Below, piece after piece: positions 7,625-14,975 of a DNA stretch of 34,998 nt. The DNA lies in NCBI GenBank assembly GCA_936941205.1, contig CAKZJF010000079.1, positions 1 through 34,998 of the forward strand. Direction: 5' to 3'. Positions within the stretch are counted from its first letter, which is position 1; the number at the start of each line of letters is the position of its first letter. The stretch is from an uncultured Candidatus Altimarinota bacterium. Its GTDB lineage: Bacteria; Patescibacteriota; Gracilibacteria; BD1-5; UBA2023. The position numbers and the translations under genes were made by a program. Below the pieces are notes generated by a model. The model saw nothing but the letters and a program-made list of their open reading frames with translations, did no database searches and was not told the origin of the DNA.

Positions 7625-8752
7625 TTATTTAGTCAATTCTTCAACAGGAATATCAGGAATTGGTTCTCCAGATGGAACATAATTTGGATCAAGTGCCTTA
7701 AGAGAAAGACCAATGCGCTTTGCTTGTGGATCAAAAGTAATAATACGTGCCTTCATCATCTCACCTACATGTACTTTATCCTCCATATTCTTTGCAACAT
7801 CTTGAGCAATCTCAGAAAGATGAATCAAACCAGAGATACCACCATCAAGTTCTAAGAAAATTCCAAATTGTGACATACGAAGGACTGGTGCCTCAATAAT
7901 ATCACCAACTTGATACTTCTCAGCAAGAACTTGCCAAGGATTTGCTTTCAATCGCTTAACAGAAAGGGAAATCTTTTCAGCTTCTATACCAATAACTTGT
8001 ACGGTAAGTTTATCACCTATACGAGCAAATTTATGAGGATTATTTACATGTCCCCAATCAATCTCAGAAACGTGAACAAGTCCTTCAATACCATTAAATG
8101 TTACAAAGAGACCGTAGGTAAGAATACCTGAAACAACACCTTCTACAACATCACCAACCTTCAAACTCTTAAGAGCTACTGAACGTTGTTCTTCTACTGC
8201 TGCCTTTTCAGAGAAGATAATTTTCTTCCCGTTTTGATCTACATTAATAACACGTACATGGAAAGGTTTTCCAACCAATTTTCCAAGATGTTCAAGAATC
8301 TTTTCTGGATTCGCACCCTCAACACGTGGGTAGTGAATTGGAGTGAGTTGAGAAACTGGAATAAATCATTTAATACCATCAAGATCAATAAGAAGTCCTC
8401 ATTTATTTGCTTCATTAGGAACAACAGTAATAATTTCTTTTGTATCAAAATTCGAATGAAGTTTTTCAATAAGTTTAATCTGGCTTGCTTTTCGAAGAGA
8501 TAGAAGGATCAATCCACTGTGACGATCGTCACCAATAACAATTGATTCAACAATATCTCCTGCATGAATCTCAGAAGTATCTTCTGTAGATGAGTGCATA
8601 TCAGAACCAGTAATAATTCCTGTAAAATGACCATCAAGATCAACAAGAATCATTTTTTGATTTGCTACAATGGCAGTTCCAGAAACCACTACACCAACAT
8701 GATATGGTTTAATAGGTTCTTGAGTTGCTAAATCTTTTGCAAAATCAGTCAT
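7625..8752 (-). CDS. rpsA: 30S ribosomal protein S1
   Basis: 375 aa with four S1 (OB-fold) repeats, at roughly residues 18-90, 105-180, 190-260 and 275-350. The last two are the best conserved (KVGDVVEGVVSGILTYGLFV, QVGDIIEAPVLRMSQFGIFL). S1 binds mRNA at the platform of the small subunit and unfolds it. This matters here because the 16S anti-SD is degenerate and genes lack SD motifs, so S1 may carry much of mRNA recruitment. The ATG at 8750-8752 is chosen because the frame upstream runs into tRNA-His. Only two UGA-Gly codons occur. Four domains rather than six is normal for many bacteria. Confidence 0.93.
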
Positions 8753-8781: not shown

Positions 8782-8859
8782 TGGGGCGAATAATGGGGCT
8801 CGAACCCACGACCTCCGGATTCACAGTCCAGCGTTCTAACCAACTAAACTATATTCGCC
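8782..8859 (-). tRNA. tRNA-His(GUG)
   Basis: Cloverleaf with acceptor GCGAATA/TATTCGC, the histidine-specific extra G at position -1 facing C73, and encoded CCA. The anticodon loop is CTGTGAA. It ends 29 bases before the rpsA start and is probably co-transcribed with it. A perfect 12-base palindrome CTTGTATACAAG (8878-8889) sits just upstream. Confidence 0.95.
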
Positions 8860-8966: not shown

Positions 8967-10844
8967 TTACTGAACTACGACAACTACTTTTGGTTCTTTT
9001 CAAATATCATGAAGAATAAGATCTGTTGCTTTCTTTTCAACAAATATCTGAAAACTATGTGCATCTTTAAATTTTGAAAGATCACCATGAAGAATAGATT
9101 TCAATAACATATCAAGATTTTTTTCTAAACCTGTCATGATATTCATAGGAGGAAGTCATACTGTATCATACTTTATACTATATCATCCAGATTTCTTTGA
9201 GATAGCGATAACAACAACTCACTGGGTTGAAATTTGATAACGGTCATGAAGTTCATGTTCTGTCGTATATCAAACCGTATGTCCATCAATAGTAGTTAAT
9301 TTATGTGGAATAAATGTTGTGGTCAATCGATGAGAATCTTTCGTAAACTCGAGAACCTGAGCATTCTTCATTATAATTACTTTATCATGTGCATATCCCA
9401 TTTCATACGCATTTCTTGCATTTCCATACAACATGTGTGGAAATCCATAGATTGGAATATAGAGTTCTGGACGTATCAAAGAAATCATTTTCTTTGTATC
9501 TTCTTCACGAGCATGTCAACCAGCATGTATTTCACTTTCTTTATAATGAAAAACATGGGGTCACTGTTGAGAAATAAGATCAAAAAGGCCTTGAACCGCT
9601 CGTTCATTTCCAGGAATTACAGAAGAAGAGAAAATAATAGTATCATCTGCTTTGAGAGTTGTATCTCGTGACTCACCTGTAACGATTCTCATAAGTGCAG
9701 CATATCTTTCTCATTGAGCACCGGTACAACAAATAGTAACTTTATTATCTGGAAGTTTAGTAGCTTGTTCCATGCTAATCAATGTCCCTTCTTTCGGTCG
9801 AACATATCAGAGTTTAACAGCAATATCTATATAGTTATTCATACTTCTTCCGAGAAGTACTACCTTCCGGTCATACTTTTCAGCCGTAGAAATAATCAAC
9901 ATCACTCGATCTATAATCGATGAAAATGTCGCGGTAATAACACGACCTGACGCTTTTTCAAAAATCTCCTCAATGGAATGAACTACTTCCGATTCCGAAA
10001 TCGAAGATCCCATCAAATGGGCATTTGTAGAATCAGAAAAAAGAGCACGAACGCCTCGATTTCAAAATGATTCAAGAAGACTATAGTCAGTGGAAGCACG
10101 GTTAGGGAGTGGCTTTTTATCAAATTTCCAGTCTCATGTATGAATAAAACGACCTACGGGAGTTTCAATACAAAGACCCACGGAATCAGGAATAGAATGA
10201 TCAACTGTAAATGGTGTAATTTGAAAGTATTTACCGATTTGTACTGGAACATTTCGTTTATATTCAAACAACTTTGGCAATGTAGCTTTCATTTCGCCTT
10301 GCTTCAGCTTAATAAGTTCGAAAGCCATAGGAGTAGCATATACCGGAGTACTTCTTCCGAGTTGTTCTAAAGCATGGTAGACTCATCAAATATGGTCGAT
10401 ATGACCATGAGTAATACAGACACCAACCACTTTCTTTGAACGACAATACGAAAGATCTGGGATACTTGCATTGATACCATACTGATATTGATCAGGAAAC
10501 TGCAACCCCATATCTACAATAAGAAGTTCATCTTTATATTCAAAAGCCATGGAATTTAAACCCACCTGCTCGCATCATCCAAATGGGATAACACGGAGAA
10601 TATCAGAAGAGGTTTCATATGGACGAGCCTTGTCTTCACGATAGTTTAAGAATTTCTTAAGAGCCTGAGATGGGGTAAGAAATGGGAATGAGCGCTTAAG
10701 GCGCATCTTCTCTTCAATAATAAATCGTTCTCATGGTCGAATATGTTCTTTTATTTCTTTTCCTCATCGGAAAAAATTTCTTGGAGCTTGAGGCTTACGT
10801 TGTGGGGTGATGCTTTTTTGTCATCATTCATTAGGAGTGTGCAT
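8967..10844 (-). CDS. rnj: ribonuclease J
   Basis: 625 aa. RNase J is the metallo-beta-lactamase/beta-CASP nuclease (5'-3' exo and endo) central to mRNA decay and rRNA maturation. Visible here are an N-terminal extension (about 80 residues, basic), PFGGCEQVGLNS (87-98), the metal motif HGHIDH (146-151), the DHSIPDS histidine, HTGDWKFD, SDSTNA, SSSVIPGNE and IHAGGHAREED, then a C-terminal domain. Many UGA-Gly codons are present, including both glycines after HGHIDH. Odd point: the usual motif C PxHGE is IPIYGF, with Tyr466 (codon 9447-9449) in place of the metal-binding His. It follows the pseudo-enzyme homologue by nine bases and shares its promoter. Activity is likely but the second metal site may be altered. 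Confidence 0.93.
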
Positions 10845-10853
10845 AAAATTGAA

Positions 10854-12092
10854 TTATTGTTCTAAAATTACGGGCATAATCATTGGGGTTCTTCCGGTAA
10901 GAAGAAAAGCATGTTTTGTTACTTCTCTACGAAGTATTTGGACAAGTTCAGGACGTTCTATAGTGCGATTTGCTAAAATTGTCTTCTCATACATGAATCG
11001 GATTCACTTTACTAATTCTTTATGAATACGCATCATTTCATGTGCATGGAGAAATCAACGACTATCTATATAGATGTGTCCTTGTATTGCTCTTCTTTCA
11101 TGATCCTCTTCAATTACAAAGGTAAGTACTCAATTCTTTGCAAGTACTTTCCTATCATCAAGTGTATATCAAGCAAGAAGTCCAACACTTTTTTCATCAA
11201 AGTAAAACACATCAAGCGTAAAAGAGAGTTCATGTATTTTTGAGGTATGTTTATCAAACATAATAATATTCCCTGGTGAACATATCTCATCTTTTCACTT
11301 ATATATATAGGAAAATTGTGATTCCTCTCTTTTTATAATACAAATATCTCATCGAGATGAAAGTGGCTTGAGAGAGTACTCTCAACTTGTCATATCGAGA
11401 ATAGTGACTTCTGGAGTGTGTATAATCAAATGGGTTGTATCTTCAGAAAAATACCCTTCAATTCTCAAATCACCAATAACTCGTTCAGGGGAACTTGGAG
11501 TAAATAACTCAAAAAAACGACATTTTAAAAGTACAGTTTCATCGAGAATTTCTGAACGAATTTTTGCAATTAATCATCTATTTGCATAGATAGGGGGGTA
11601 TCCAAGAACAGGTAAAATAGCAAGAAAAGTTGCTACATTAATGTCATCCTCTGGAATAATCCAACCTTGCAATCGGTCTTTTTCAGAGTAAGCAAGACGC
11701 AAATCTGGAAAGGCCTGATATACATTCTCATGAGAAATAATTGAAGAAAAGCCAGTATGAAAAAGAAAGGTTGCATCACCACATCGCAATATACTCATAG
11801 GATGGAGCACCTTTACATCCGATAAAAGAACCAAGCGAGTTTGAAAATCTTGTGTCGTTGGAAAAAAAGTCTTTTTCATAGCGTGAAGCATTTCATCCAA
11901 GGAAGAAACGGAGAGTGCTTTCACTATGTCATATTCTTTTTCCTTTGAAATCGAATGACCTGTTTTTCGAGGTGCTGGTTTTGGCCGAGAAGAAGGAACA
12001 TGAGAAGTATTCCTTTCTCAAGGAAGATTCTGTTTACGTGGAGAAAGACCAAATGAAATCTCATCGGTATTTCAAAAAATATGTTCGCTCAT
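10854..12092 (-). CDS. catalytically dead, truncated RNase J homologue
   Basis: 412 aa. Clear relative of the downstream RNase J but reduced. It shares the N-terminal extension, here with a Pro/Arg/Lys-rich tail (SSRPKPAPRK near 34-43), a beta-lactamase-like segment (about 90-250), and the RNase J C-terminal domain (about 290-412, ending RREVTKHAFLLTGRTPMIMP then VILEQ). The HxHxDH motif is replaced by EDDINV (148-153). The DHSIPDS His and the HTGD Asp are also gone, and the beta-CASP domain is absent. All metal ligands are therefore lost, while the C-terminal domain used for subunit assembly is kept. The likely role is a structural or RNA-binding partner of RNase J (inference), comparable in spirit to the J1/J2 pair of Bacillus but far more degenerate. 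First gene of the operon. Confidence 0.85.
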
Positions 12093-12277: not shown

Positions 12278-12979
12278 TTATCCAAGAGAAAACAAATATT
12301 TTTTCAAAGAAATGCGGATTTTTGTTGTATCCCAAAGATATGATCCTATTCCTTTCGGATCAATAGCATATTCTGTTCATTGAAATTCCCCTTTTATAAA
12401 TACTCGTTCCTTCATAAATTTATACTTCTCAGCTAATATACTATTTTTCTTCGATTTTTCTAAAAAAGTTCGATTATGGAATATATAAAAAGTAAAGGTT
12501 TCTGCAAAATCCTCATATTGATTTGTAAGGGCATATCCAGAAACAAAGTCATTTACCTTCGCCTCTCGTAGACGCTCATTTGCTGTCTTCCAACTAATCG
12601 AATAAAAGATAGCGGACGGATCTCTTTTTTGTGAGTCAGAAATTAATCGAAATATATCCATATAATGACCGAGCTCATGGGAGAGAACTTTAATAAATTC
12701 ACCATCATCTTCTTGACCAGTTCATGCGAGTGTTATTATTCCTGCGCGAAATTGTCCTCTCGGTTCATCTTTTGAAACATCAATCCGAATAATTGCATCT
12801 GAAAGATTGGTTCGATAAAATGGCTTTGTCATAGTGAGAAGTACATAATTCTTCTTTTTCAAAATAGCATTGGTACTCTCCCCATCTATCACAAGAGAAA
12901 CTTGAGCTGAAAGAAATGATACTCAACACATAATACCTATTCAAACAAACAAAGATGTAACCGCTTTAAAAGAAATCAT
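12278..12979 (-). CDS. secreted zinc metallopeptidase-like protein
   Basis: 233 aa. The N-terminal hydrophobic segment (about 5-25, ending SAQ) looks like a signal peptide. HELGHY (101-106) is the zinc-binding HExxH motif with the catalytic Glu, and YEDFAETF (155-162) offers the downstream glutamate ligand typical of gluzincins such as anthrax-lethal-factor-like or Mlc-associated peptidases. No family name can be assigned with certainty. Five UGA-Gly codons are read through. The gene is last in the cluster of four T4SS-pilin-like genes, 11 bases after the nearest, so it may process or remodel proteins or peptidoglycan for that surface structure (inference). Confidence 0.75.
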
Positions 12980-12990
12980 AAATATACCTA

Positions 12991-13383
12991 TTATGGTTGA
13001 AGTGTATAAATAAAATCAACAATACTATTCACTGCTGCAAATGATACTATCATAACAATCAATCCTACTATTCCCCACTTAATAGCATCCTTTCCTTTTT
13101 TTACTTTTTCATCGCTCCCCATAGAGGATGCATAGAAGAATCCACCGAGAACAATCGCTCCAATCGAAAATACGGAACCAACAACAATCAGGCGATTAGC
13201 AATATTAATAGTTTTTTCCTTTATTCATGCTATCCCATCAGGAGTTGTATCACCAATAACATATTCAGGCTTACAATCGGTAAAAAAATCTCCATTTCAA
13301 GTACAGCTTTCACTCGAAGCAAATACAGATAAGGCGAATATTTGTACAAGACACACTCAGAGGAGAATAATTCGATGAAACAT
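12991..13383 (-). CDS. T4SS-pilin-like two-helix membrane protein (copy 4)
   Basis: 130 aa. Signal peptide (residues 1-21, ending VFAS), a short extracytoplasmic part with three cysteines, then two hydrophobic helices (about 68-88 and 105-126). Between the helices is the basic loop GSDEKVKKGKDAIKWG. This layout matches the VirB2/TrbC-like 'T4SS_pilin' family frequent in CPR genomes. Three UGA codons read as Gly. It starts six bases after the stop of the next copy and precedes the metallopeptidase. The family assignment is from layout and loop motif only. Confidence 0.72.
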
Positions 13384-13389
13384 AGAGAT

Positions 13390-13728
13390 TTATAAAGAAA
13401 TATTGGTTACTACTTTAACAAGGACATACGAAGCCATGGCAACAACAATTCCTACCCCAACATATACCAGGGATTTCCAAGCTTTCTTAAATTGCTCTTC
13501 ATTCCCCTGTGCTGTAAAGAGATTATATGCCACCCAAAGAAATACTCCGATTGCAATTAACGGAAATGCTACCAATAAAATATCGGTAGCAAAAGCAAAA
13601 TATTCGGTAACATCCGAAGGAGTATTTATGCCACTCTCGGGCTTATTTAAAAGCATATCACCCTTAAGATCGGCAAAAAGAATATATGGAGAAAAAAGTG
13701 CAATAATGAAGAAAAGGATGGTTTTCAT
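13390..13728 (-). CDS. T4SS-pilin-like two-helix membrane protein (copy 3)
   Basis: 112 aa, with no internal UGA. Signal peptide (1-19, ending LFA), 30-residue polar segment, helix 1 (about 45-70, ending WVAYNLF), loop TAQGNEEQFKKAWKSLVYVG and helix 2 (about 87-108). The G(D/N)E-E-xx-KKA loop is common to all four genes of the cluster and marks them as paralogues. VirB2-type pilins form the extracellular filament of type IV secretion systems, but no VirB4-like ATPase is present in the window, so the role is unproven. Confidence 0.75.
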   Translation of the reverse strand: MKTILFFIIALFSPYILFADLKGDMLLNKPESGINTPSDVTEYFAFATDILLVAFPLIAIGVFLWVAYNLFTAQGNEEQFKKAWKSLVYVGVGIVVAMASYVLVKVVTNISL

Positions 13729-13736
13729 AAGTAAAT

Positions 13737-14111
13737 TTAAAAGGAATGATCTGAGATTTTTGCGTTTATATCAACAATAGAATAGGCAGAAGCGGAAAAT
13801 CCTGTACCAATAAGAGCATAGGTAATAATCCATTTGGCTTTTTTTGCTTTCTCATCTTCTCAGAATGAGGTTACATACTTAATTCCTCAGAAAATTATAG
13901 CAATAACGGAAATAATAGAAACATATATAGAAAGCTTTTTAATAACGTTGGCAATTAGCCCACCAACACCCTGGGCATCATTTCCTATAAATTGAAAATC
14001 AATCATGCCATCAATTGGCGCCTCCACATTTACCACTGCGAATGTAGGCAATGAATAGAATGCAAGTAGACAAATGAGAAGTAATTTGATTCTTAAAGTT
14101 GAAGTACCCAT
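13737..14111 (-). CDS. T4SS-pilin-like two-helix membrane protein (copy 2)
   Basis: 124 aa starting at the ATG 14109-14111, which overlaps the end of copy 1 by 19 bases. Longer upstream frames would run deeper into copy 1. Signal peptide LLLICLLAFYSLPTFA (about 10-25), polar part, helix 1 (about 55-75), loop GEDEKAKKAKWIITYA, helix 2 (about 97-114). Two UGA codons stand for Gly, one directly before the GED motif. The shared architecture and tight spacing show tandem duplication in a single transcription unit. Confidence 0.75.
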
Positions 14112-14485
14112 GCTACAAATGAGATTAGAGAATAAGAGAAGAGGGCGATAATAATAGCTATTATGTTCGCTCGGATAATTCATTTTGCCTTCGTTACATT
14201 CTCGGTATCACCTCATGAAAATACAAAAAAATACCCTGCAATAACACCACTAATACCTGCAATAATAGGAATTAATATAAGTAATATGCGCGATATAGCC
14301 TCCAGTATTGATGTAACTCATCAATCTGATGTTAAAAATACTCCACGACTATTTGAACCAGCAGTAGCATCAAGTGCATTCAAATCTACCATGTAATCAG
14401 GTGATGTCATATCATTTGTTCAAAGAGCGAATGGTACCACAAAAAAAGTGGATAAGAAAATGAATAGAGAGAGAAATCAGTGCAT
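14093..14485 (-). CDS. T4SS-pilin-like two-helix membrane protein (copy 1)
   Basis: 130 aa, the first gene after the promoter at 14506-14534. The upstream in-frame ATG (14513-14515) lies between the -35 and -10 and so cannot be in the transcript. That fixes the start at 14483-14485, with a leader of about 14 bases. Signal peptide (1-21), polar segment, helix 1 (about 66-90), loop SGGDTENVTKAKGIIRAN, helix 2 (about 106-128). UGA-Gly codons are frequent, including two GG pairs. It is the most diverged of the four paralogues. Confidence 0.75.
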
Positions 14486-14505
14486 AAATTCAAAATTATA
14501 GATAA

Positions 14506-14534
14506 ATTGTACCATAAAAAGTATGAATTGCCAA
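14506..14534 (-). promoter_or_regulatory. promoter of the T4SS-pilin/metallopeptidase operon
   Basis: -35 TTGGCA (14529-14534), 17-base spacer, -10 TACAAT (14506-14511). The leader is only about 14 bases. It is back to back with the plus-strand promoter at 14540-14567. Confidence 0.7.
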
Positions 14535-14539
14535 AAAAA

Positions 14540-14567
14540 TTGATGATTTTCTAAAAACCTATATACT
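14540..14567 (+). promoter_or_regulatory. promoter of the yvlD-like/secG/SBP genes
   Basis: -35 TTGATG (14540-14545), 16-base spacer, -10 TATACT (14562-14567), divergent from the pilin cluster promoter six bases away. One regulator bound here could affect both directions. Confidence 0.6.
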
Positions 14568-14597
14568 CCAGCATAACTACCCTCTACAATTTTGTTT

Positions 14598-14975
14598 ATG
14601 AAAATATTTTTCATGATCCTATTAAATGGAATTTTACTCTATATTCTACAGCTCCTTTTGCCATGTCATGAAGGTATCACAGGCATATGTGTAATCTGAG
14701 GATGGAAAACATTCTTCATTGGTTGAGTTATTCTTTGATTTATCAATGGTTTCATACGACCAATTCTTAATATACTAACACTTCCTATACGTATACTCAC
14801 CCTCGGGACCTTTGCCCTTGTTATTAATGGACTCCTCCTTGCTCTTTTTCAAAAAACAGTAACTCTCTTAAATCTCAGCAATACTTCTTATGAAATTCAT
14901 GGATTCGGACAGTTTGTAATTGCAGTTGCAATTTTCACGATATTTAATACACTTGTGTCCGTTTTTATAAAATAA
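14598..14975 (+). CDS. YvlD/phage-holin-4-2 family membrane protein
   Basis: 125 aa with four hydrophobic helices. The segment GFINGFIRPILNILTLPIRI followed by LTLGTFALVINGLLLAL is the hallmark of the YvlD (PF04020) family, small membrane proteins of unknown or envelope-stress-related function. Despite the family's old 'holin' name nothing suggests a phage. Three UGA codons read as Gly. It is first in a plus-strand unit with secG. Confidence 0.8.

Follow-up and report, generated by a model that had tools for sequence, protein, structure and literature searches.

In Bacillus subtilis, RNases J1 and J2 form stable heteromers that join one strong and one weak catalyst (PMC6759994, PMC4652760), and J1/J2 assemble into heterotetramers (PMC6759994). 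In the enzymes of Staphylococcus and Bacillus, dimerization of RNase J1 is driven by the C-terminal domain (CTD), without which the enzyme is monomeric and has an altered exo/endo balance (PMC7864078). The CTD of M. tuberculosis RNase J was found to be dispensable for both dimerization and activity (PMC10119312), which counts against the proposal made below. In CPSF73/CPSF100 and INTS11/INTS9, an active MBL/beta-CASP nuclease is paired with an inactive homologue, and the two are joined mainly via their C-terminal domains (PMC9006982). Active/inactive nuclease pairs (J1/J2, CPSF73/100) are known, then, and their origins are usually hidden in deep time. Our search of the open-access literature found no description of a split RNase J of the kind considered here.

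The window, i.e. the whole stretch of DNA analysed (34,998 nucleotides), carries two neighbouring genes whose products both have RNase J1/J2 as their closest solved relatives by sequence. The features of the first, P0001, are:

10854..12092, minus strand: P0001, a catalysis-free native RNase J of 412 aa (translation with code 25, Pfam RNase_J_C, fold match, synteny)
12048..12092, minus strand: N-terminal motif of P0001, residues 1-15, MSEHIFGNTDEISFG (alignments; disordered in the model)
11193..11852, minus strand: pseudo-MBL domain of P0001, residues 81-300, without the beta-CASP insert (AlphaFold2 model and VIA-align)
11634..11651, minus strand: EDDINV in P0001, replacing the HxHxDH metal motif (alignment with canonical RNase J)
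10857..11171, minus strand: intact RNase J CTD of P0001, residues 308-412, with the DSRGF and RTPMIMPVI signatures (Pfam; lowest dN/dS of P0001)

The P0001 frame includes ten TGA codons read as Gly (code 25) within its 412 aa. The original prediction had described a frame of this length and position, nine bases from an active gene, and the sequence agrees in every point. It had also seen that EDDINV stands for HxHxDH, that the later His and Asp ligands are gone and that beta-CASP is deleted; the AlphaFold2 model and alignment with the canonical RNase J of the same family confirm this, and the beta-CASP motifs are likewise absent from that alignment. Neither the Pfam MBL profile nor the beta-CASP profile (PF22505) matched P0001, the alignment showing a gap at beta-CASP, and the single PF22505 match in the source genome lies in the neighbouring P0002. 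On NCBIfam TIGR00649 (cut-off 400 bits), P0001 fails with 30.9 bits while P0002 passes with 403.4. A scan of the genome contigs with P0001 as query gave no match.

Three parts had been said to survive in P0001, namely an N-terminal extension, a beta-lactamase-like segment and the CTD. The CTD stands: RNase_J_C (PF17770) matches residues 311-411 (E 5.9e-11, 43.7 bits versus a cut-off of 23.8) and is the sole Pfam match of this region, which shows no CPSF-type C-terminal domain. The segment is a complete MBL fold rather than a fragment, and conservation of the extension is confined to its first ~15 residues. Alignments and the N-termini of canonical proteins show that MSEHIFGNTDEISFG corresponds to MNDFFTELESDL of the intact native enzyme; past the motif, the alignments show a variable linker of ~65 residues. 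Across the order, the N-termini of native RNase J in families f1, f2 and f3 (e.g. L056, L170 and L168) begin with a motif resembling M(x)DFFxELDxEL, after which comes a disordered linker. This motif looks like a candidate docking peptide.

The AlphaFold2 model of P0001, built from 16 aligned sequences (pLDDT 76), has a disordered tail (residues 1-62) and predicts both the MBL fold and the CTD with confidence. Modelling the protein alone had been suggested as a check, and it gave a confident fold match: the top Foldseek hits are all RNase J (E 5e-16), and in VIA-align the MBL part fits the MBL domain of 6k6s_B over 211 residues (Z 17.1, rmsd 3.3). Against whole RNase Js, the model scores Z 17-18, with the beta-CASP insert absent. 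P0001 is a relative of RNase J with a folded MBL domain devoid of ligands, no beta-CASP and an intact CTD.

The second gene and the flanking genes are as follows:

10845..10853, minus strand: nine-base spacer between P0001 and P0002 (sequence)
8967..10844, minus strand: P0002, a 'P2-type' RNase J of 625 aa, acquired horizontally, putative catalytic subunit (Pfam and NCBIfam, conserved metal ligands, tree)
10392..10409, minus strand: intact HGHIDH metal motif of P0002, residues 146-151 (invariant in 17 P2-type proteins)
8973..9251, minus strand: degenerate CTD of P0002, residues 532-624, RGF signature lost (Pfam, motif table)
12278..12979, minus strand: F4, a zinc-metallopeptidase-like gene that marks the ancestral RNase J locus (in two families, the gene just upstream of native RNase J, whether this is intact or dead)
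12991..14614, minus strand: F1, tandem T4SS-pilin-like genes, likewise markers of that locus (Pfam T4SS_pilin matches, synteny)

The neighbour had been called active, and its sequence fits this description: P0002 matches the Pfam MBL and beta-CASP profiles, and HGHIDH, the remaining MBL ligands and both motif A and motif B are intact, with no variation at any of these positions among the P2-type proteins (n=17). Motif C is Tyr. A His-to-Tyr change at motif C could be read as a loss coupled to that of P0001; we gave it no weight because this position varies (H, E, Y, F or S) among Patescibacteria whose sites are intact in other respects. Downstream of the pair, a tRNA-His (8782-8858, minus strand) lies directly upstream of a gene for a multi-S1-domain protein (7625-8749).

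To ask how P0001 and P0002 are distributed, we compared metagenome-assembled genomes, in which direct matches with named organisms were mostly Candidatus Gracilibacteria, with one Peregrinibacteria. In the window's GTDB family (f1, 27 genomes), 23 genomes have a P2-type RNase J; G014, G016 and G018 have only a canonical RNase J of ~640 aa with MNDFFTELESDL or similar at its N-terminus, and neither type was found in G008. Within the order, 23 of the 24 genomes with a P2-type enzyme also encode a catalysis-free native copy; the remaining one, G012, shows no partner, and its contig begins only a short distance upstream of the P2 gene. In genomes of the order without a P2-type enzyme, the native RNase J is intact. 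The gene pair, whose conservation in relatives had been proposed as a check, is conserved, the dead gene travelling with the active one. A single RNase J CTD is present in each of 47 genomes of the sister family, f2, while G085 carries two, one in a P2-type RNase J and one, on a separate contig, in a full-length native RNase J in which all catalytic motifs are destroyed (e.g. ITNALVENAG for ITHGHLDHIG), the CTD and N-terminal motif being intact. Surveys of the class (145 genomes) and phylum (380) otherwise returned one RNase J CTD per genome, besides weak sub-threshold matches.

The same split was sought in the phylum survey of 380 genomes, where only two genomes had two CTD matches and neither was a split. 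G423 was set aside as a single ORF with a split match, and G233, from distant Patescibacteria, as having two full-length RNase Js with HxHxDH intact in both (L307, L309). G507 (f3), with two similar CTDs on two contigs, has no dead partner. In G160 and G507 (L168, L169), the single RNase J shows QETTN as a divergent form of beta-CASP motif A, and its CTD is both short and weak; f3 RNase J has changed along a third path of its own within the order.

Synteny and trees show which copy is native. G014 and G016 have only the intact enzyme; in both, RNase J directly follows the F4 and F1 genes, an arrangement that recurs around the intact RNase J of f2 genomes (G060, G154, G534 and G531; F4 also in G533). 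This F1/F4 locus is where the dead copy lies in the window, and likewise in G085, the g12 genomes and relatives including G001, G006 and G007. This association of RNase J with T4SS-pilin-like and metallopeptidase-like genes in two families is itself an odd conserved neighbourhood (12278-14614 in the window; L201, L202, L298, L300-L302). The P2-type gene is directly downstream of the dead gene in most genomes, and unlinked, elsewhere in the genome, in g12 and G085. In a tree of 64 RNase Js, the P2-type proteins form one clade (support 100) whose neighbours are Parcubacteria-type enzymes and a single Altimarinota sequence; the order's native RNase J stands apart from it, and the dead protein of G085 falls among the native f2 proteins. 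In the CTD tree, for which the alignment is short and the branch of the window-type CTDs long, the AU test rejected a clade of dead and P2 CTDs (p 0.0055) and did not reject one of dead and native f1/f2 CTDs (p 0.32). There, the CTD from g12 clusters with native f1 sequences, and that of the dead G085 protein lies inside the f2 native ones.

P0001 had been regarded as a truncated duplicate of its neighbour. From the synteny and the trees, we conclude instead that it is the RNase J native to the lineage, decayed at its own locus, and that the neighbour is the newcomer. P0002 is a horizontally acquired xenologue, the transfer resting on the tree. The P2-type gene may have entered once, into the ancestor of the order with loss in some lines, or twice, and G049 (Peregrinibacteria NORP126; L303/L180) may be close to the donor lineage.

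Successive stages of decay of the native copy are found among the relatives. It is dead but full-length in G085 (665 aa), has lost beta-CASP in G013 and G026 (490-518 aa), measures about 406-433 aa in the window's genus, g3, g4, g5 and g10, and consists of tail plus CTD in G001, G002, G011 and g12 (165-187 aa). The CTD is kept in every member of the series; the N-terminal motif is clear in most remnants, and weak or absent in G001, G002 and G011. Since each of the two families still includes intact native copies, catalysis was lost at least twice, in the window's family and, with G085, in its sister family.

Retention of the dead relative, which the original prediction had assumed, is borne out by purifying selection on its CTD. 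Pairwise Nei-Gojobori estimates for same-genus pairs are rough values, as dS is high, though they are not neutral. Where dS was unsaturated, dN/dS was about 0.03-0.06 for the dead CTD, which is therefore functional; the pseudo-MBL gave about 0.14, the linker 0.3-0.6 and the active partner 0.01-0.03. In the more diverged window-G015 pair, values were higher (0.39 for the pseudo-MBL). A feature that had gone unmentioned is the degenerate CTD of the active copy, which in P0002 scores 18.2 bits against the Pfam cut-off of 23.8. In 22 of 23 pairs, from genomes that are related and hence not independent, the CTD of the partner outscored that of the active copy (median 50 versus 27 bits; 49 bits for canonical f2 RNase J), the exception being G013, in which the active copy scores slightly higher. 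Most active copies have lost the xRGF/L signature, which the dead ones retain. With the CTD of the active copy degenerate, the two proteins are complementary.

We propose that the pair constitutes a two-gene RNase J, with a foreign catalytic subunit and a native non-catalytic subunit providing CTD and N-terminal tail; we put the probability of this reading, in which heteromer formation and tail docking are inferred, at roughly 70%. The foreign RNase J was gained horizontally and provides catalysis, its own CTD being degenerate. At the ancestral locus, the native enzyme has lost its catalytic residues, then beta-CASP and, in some lineages, the MBL domain, keeping an intact CTD and, in most lineages, the tail motif. 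The CTD of the remnant would pair with the catalytic subunit and set the oligomeric state, and the tail would dock the enzyme onto native partners. A stronger form of the proposal, in which the holoenzyme is split by domain across two ancestries and the foreign subunit needs the dismantled native enzyme as an obligate assembly and docking subunit, with catalysis lost at least twice, seems to us evenly balanced between right and wrong. RNA binding had been offered as one role of the dead subunit; it is unlikely to be the shared one, because sister lineages delete the entire MBL/beta-CASP part and keep the tail and CTD. Assembly or docking is a better guess.

The chief evidence against a two-gene RNase J comes from G049, whose P2-type RNase J has no partner detectable by profile at E up to 5, so that a P2-type enzyme may work alone. 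The unlinked genes of g12 and G085, the G013 pair and the blurred motif of G001, G002 and G011 also count against it. Some of these observations would suit a remnant that acts off the new RNase J as an independent scaffold or adaptor, its CTD homodimerizing and binding other native partners: the CTD fold of P2-type RNase J is still recognisable and the enzyme may be self-sufficient, as in G049, linkage is dispensed with in g12 and G085, and the RNase J2 CTD of Streptococcus mutans binds several other proteins (PMC6759994). We nevertheless consider such a role unlikely, given that the remnant is restricted to genomes with a P2-type enzyme, usually directly upstream of it, and that the degeneration of the two proteins is complementary. 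Somewhat less probable still is that the remnant restrains the acquired RNase J, as a dominant-negative or dosage regulator acting via CTD pairing. By inference, a dead homologue can inhibit its partner by forming heteromers with it, and the putative regulator gene comes first; this leaves unexplained why the CTD signature has decayed in the active copy and is intact in the remnant. A duplication within the lineage, of the J1/J2 kind, is suggested by the adjacency of homologous genes in the window; it is very improbable and contradicted on three counts, as the order's native RNase J is not the sister group of the P2-type clade, a joint clade of dead and P2 CTDs is rejected by the AU test, and the ancestral locus is held by the dead gene. 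Least credible is a functionless, decaying pseudogene, which would account for missing catalytic motifs and repeated deletions and is contradicted by the selection test on the CTD, by open frames in >20 genomes and by retention in small genomes.

If the two-gene RNase J is indeed a heteromer, a xenologue that displaces a core enzyme can leave the native gene behind as a subunit, and the irreplaceable part of RNase J would be pinpointed as tail plus CTD. Intact native, dead full-length, partly deleted and CTD-only forms, beside the foreign replacement, are all extant in relatives, and the remnants offer a natural minimal construct for probing the role of the RNase J CTD, which differs among reports on different species.

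Compared with the canonical RNase J of the order (G014, G016 and f2), the dead protein shares locus, N-terminal motif and CTD, whereas the canonical enzyme unites catalysis and CTD on one polypeptide. The Firmicutes J1/J2 system is alike in having two RNase J proteins and a CTD that matters in oligomerization (PMC7864078), the pairing being deduced here. In contrast, J2 retains MBL and beta-CASP, while P0001 has no beta-CASP and its g12 relatives no MBL either, and J1 and J2 are paralogues from a lineage duplication, while tree and AU test indicate two phylogenetic origins here. The locus is a partial parallel to CPSF73/CPSF100 and INTS11/INTS9: an active and an inactive homologue are present, but the inactive P0001 has no beta-CASP; CPSF100 and INTS9 are ancient homologues that have kept the MBL/beta-CASP core and have another type of CTD, whereas P0001 is a displaced native gene.
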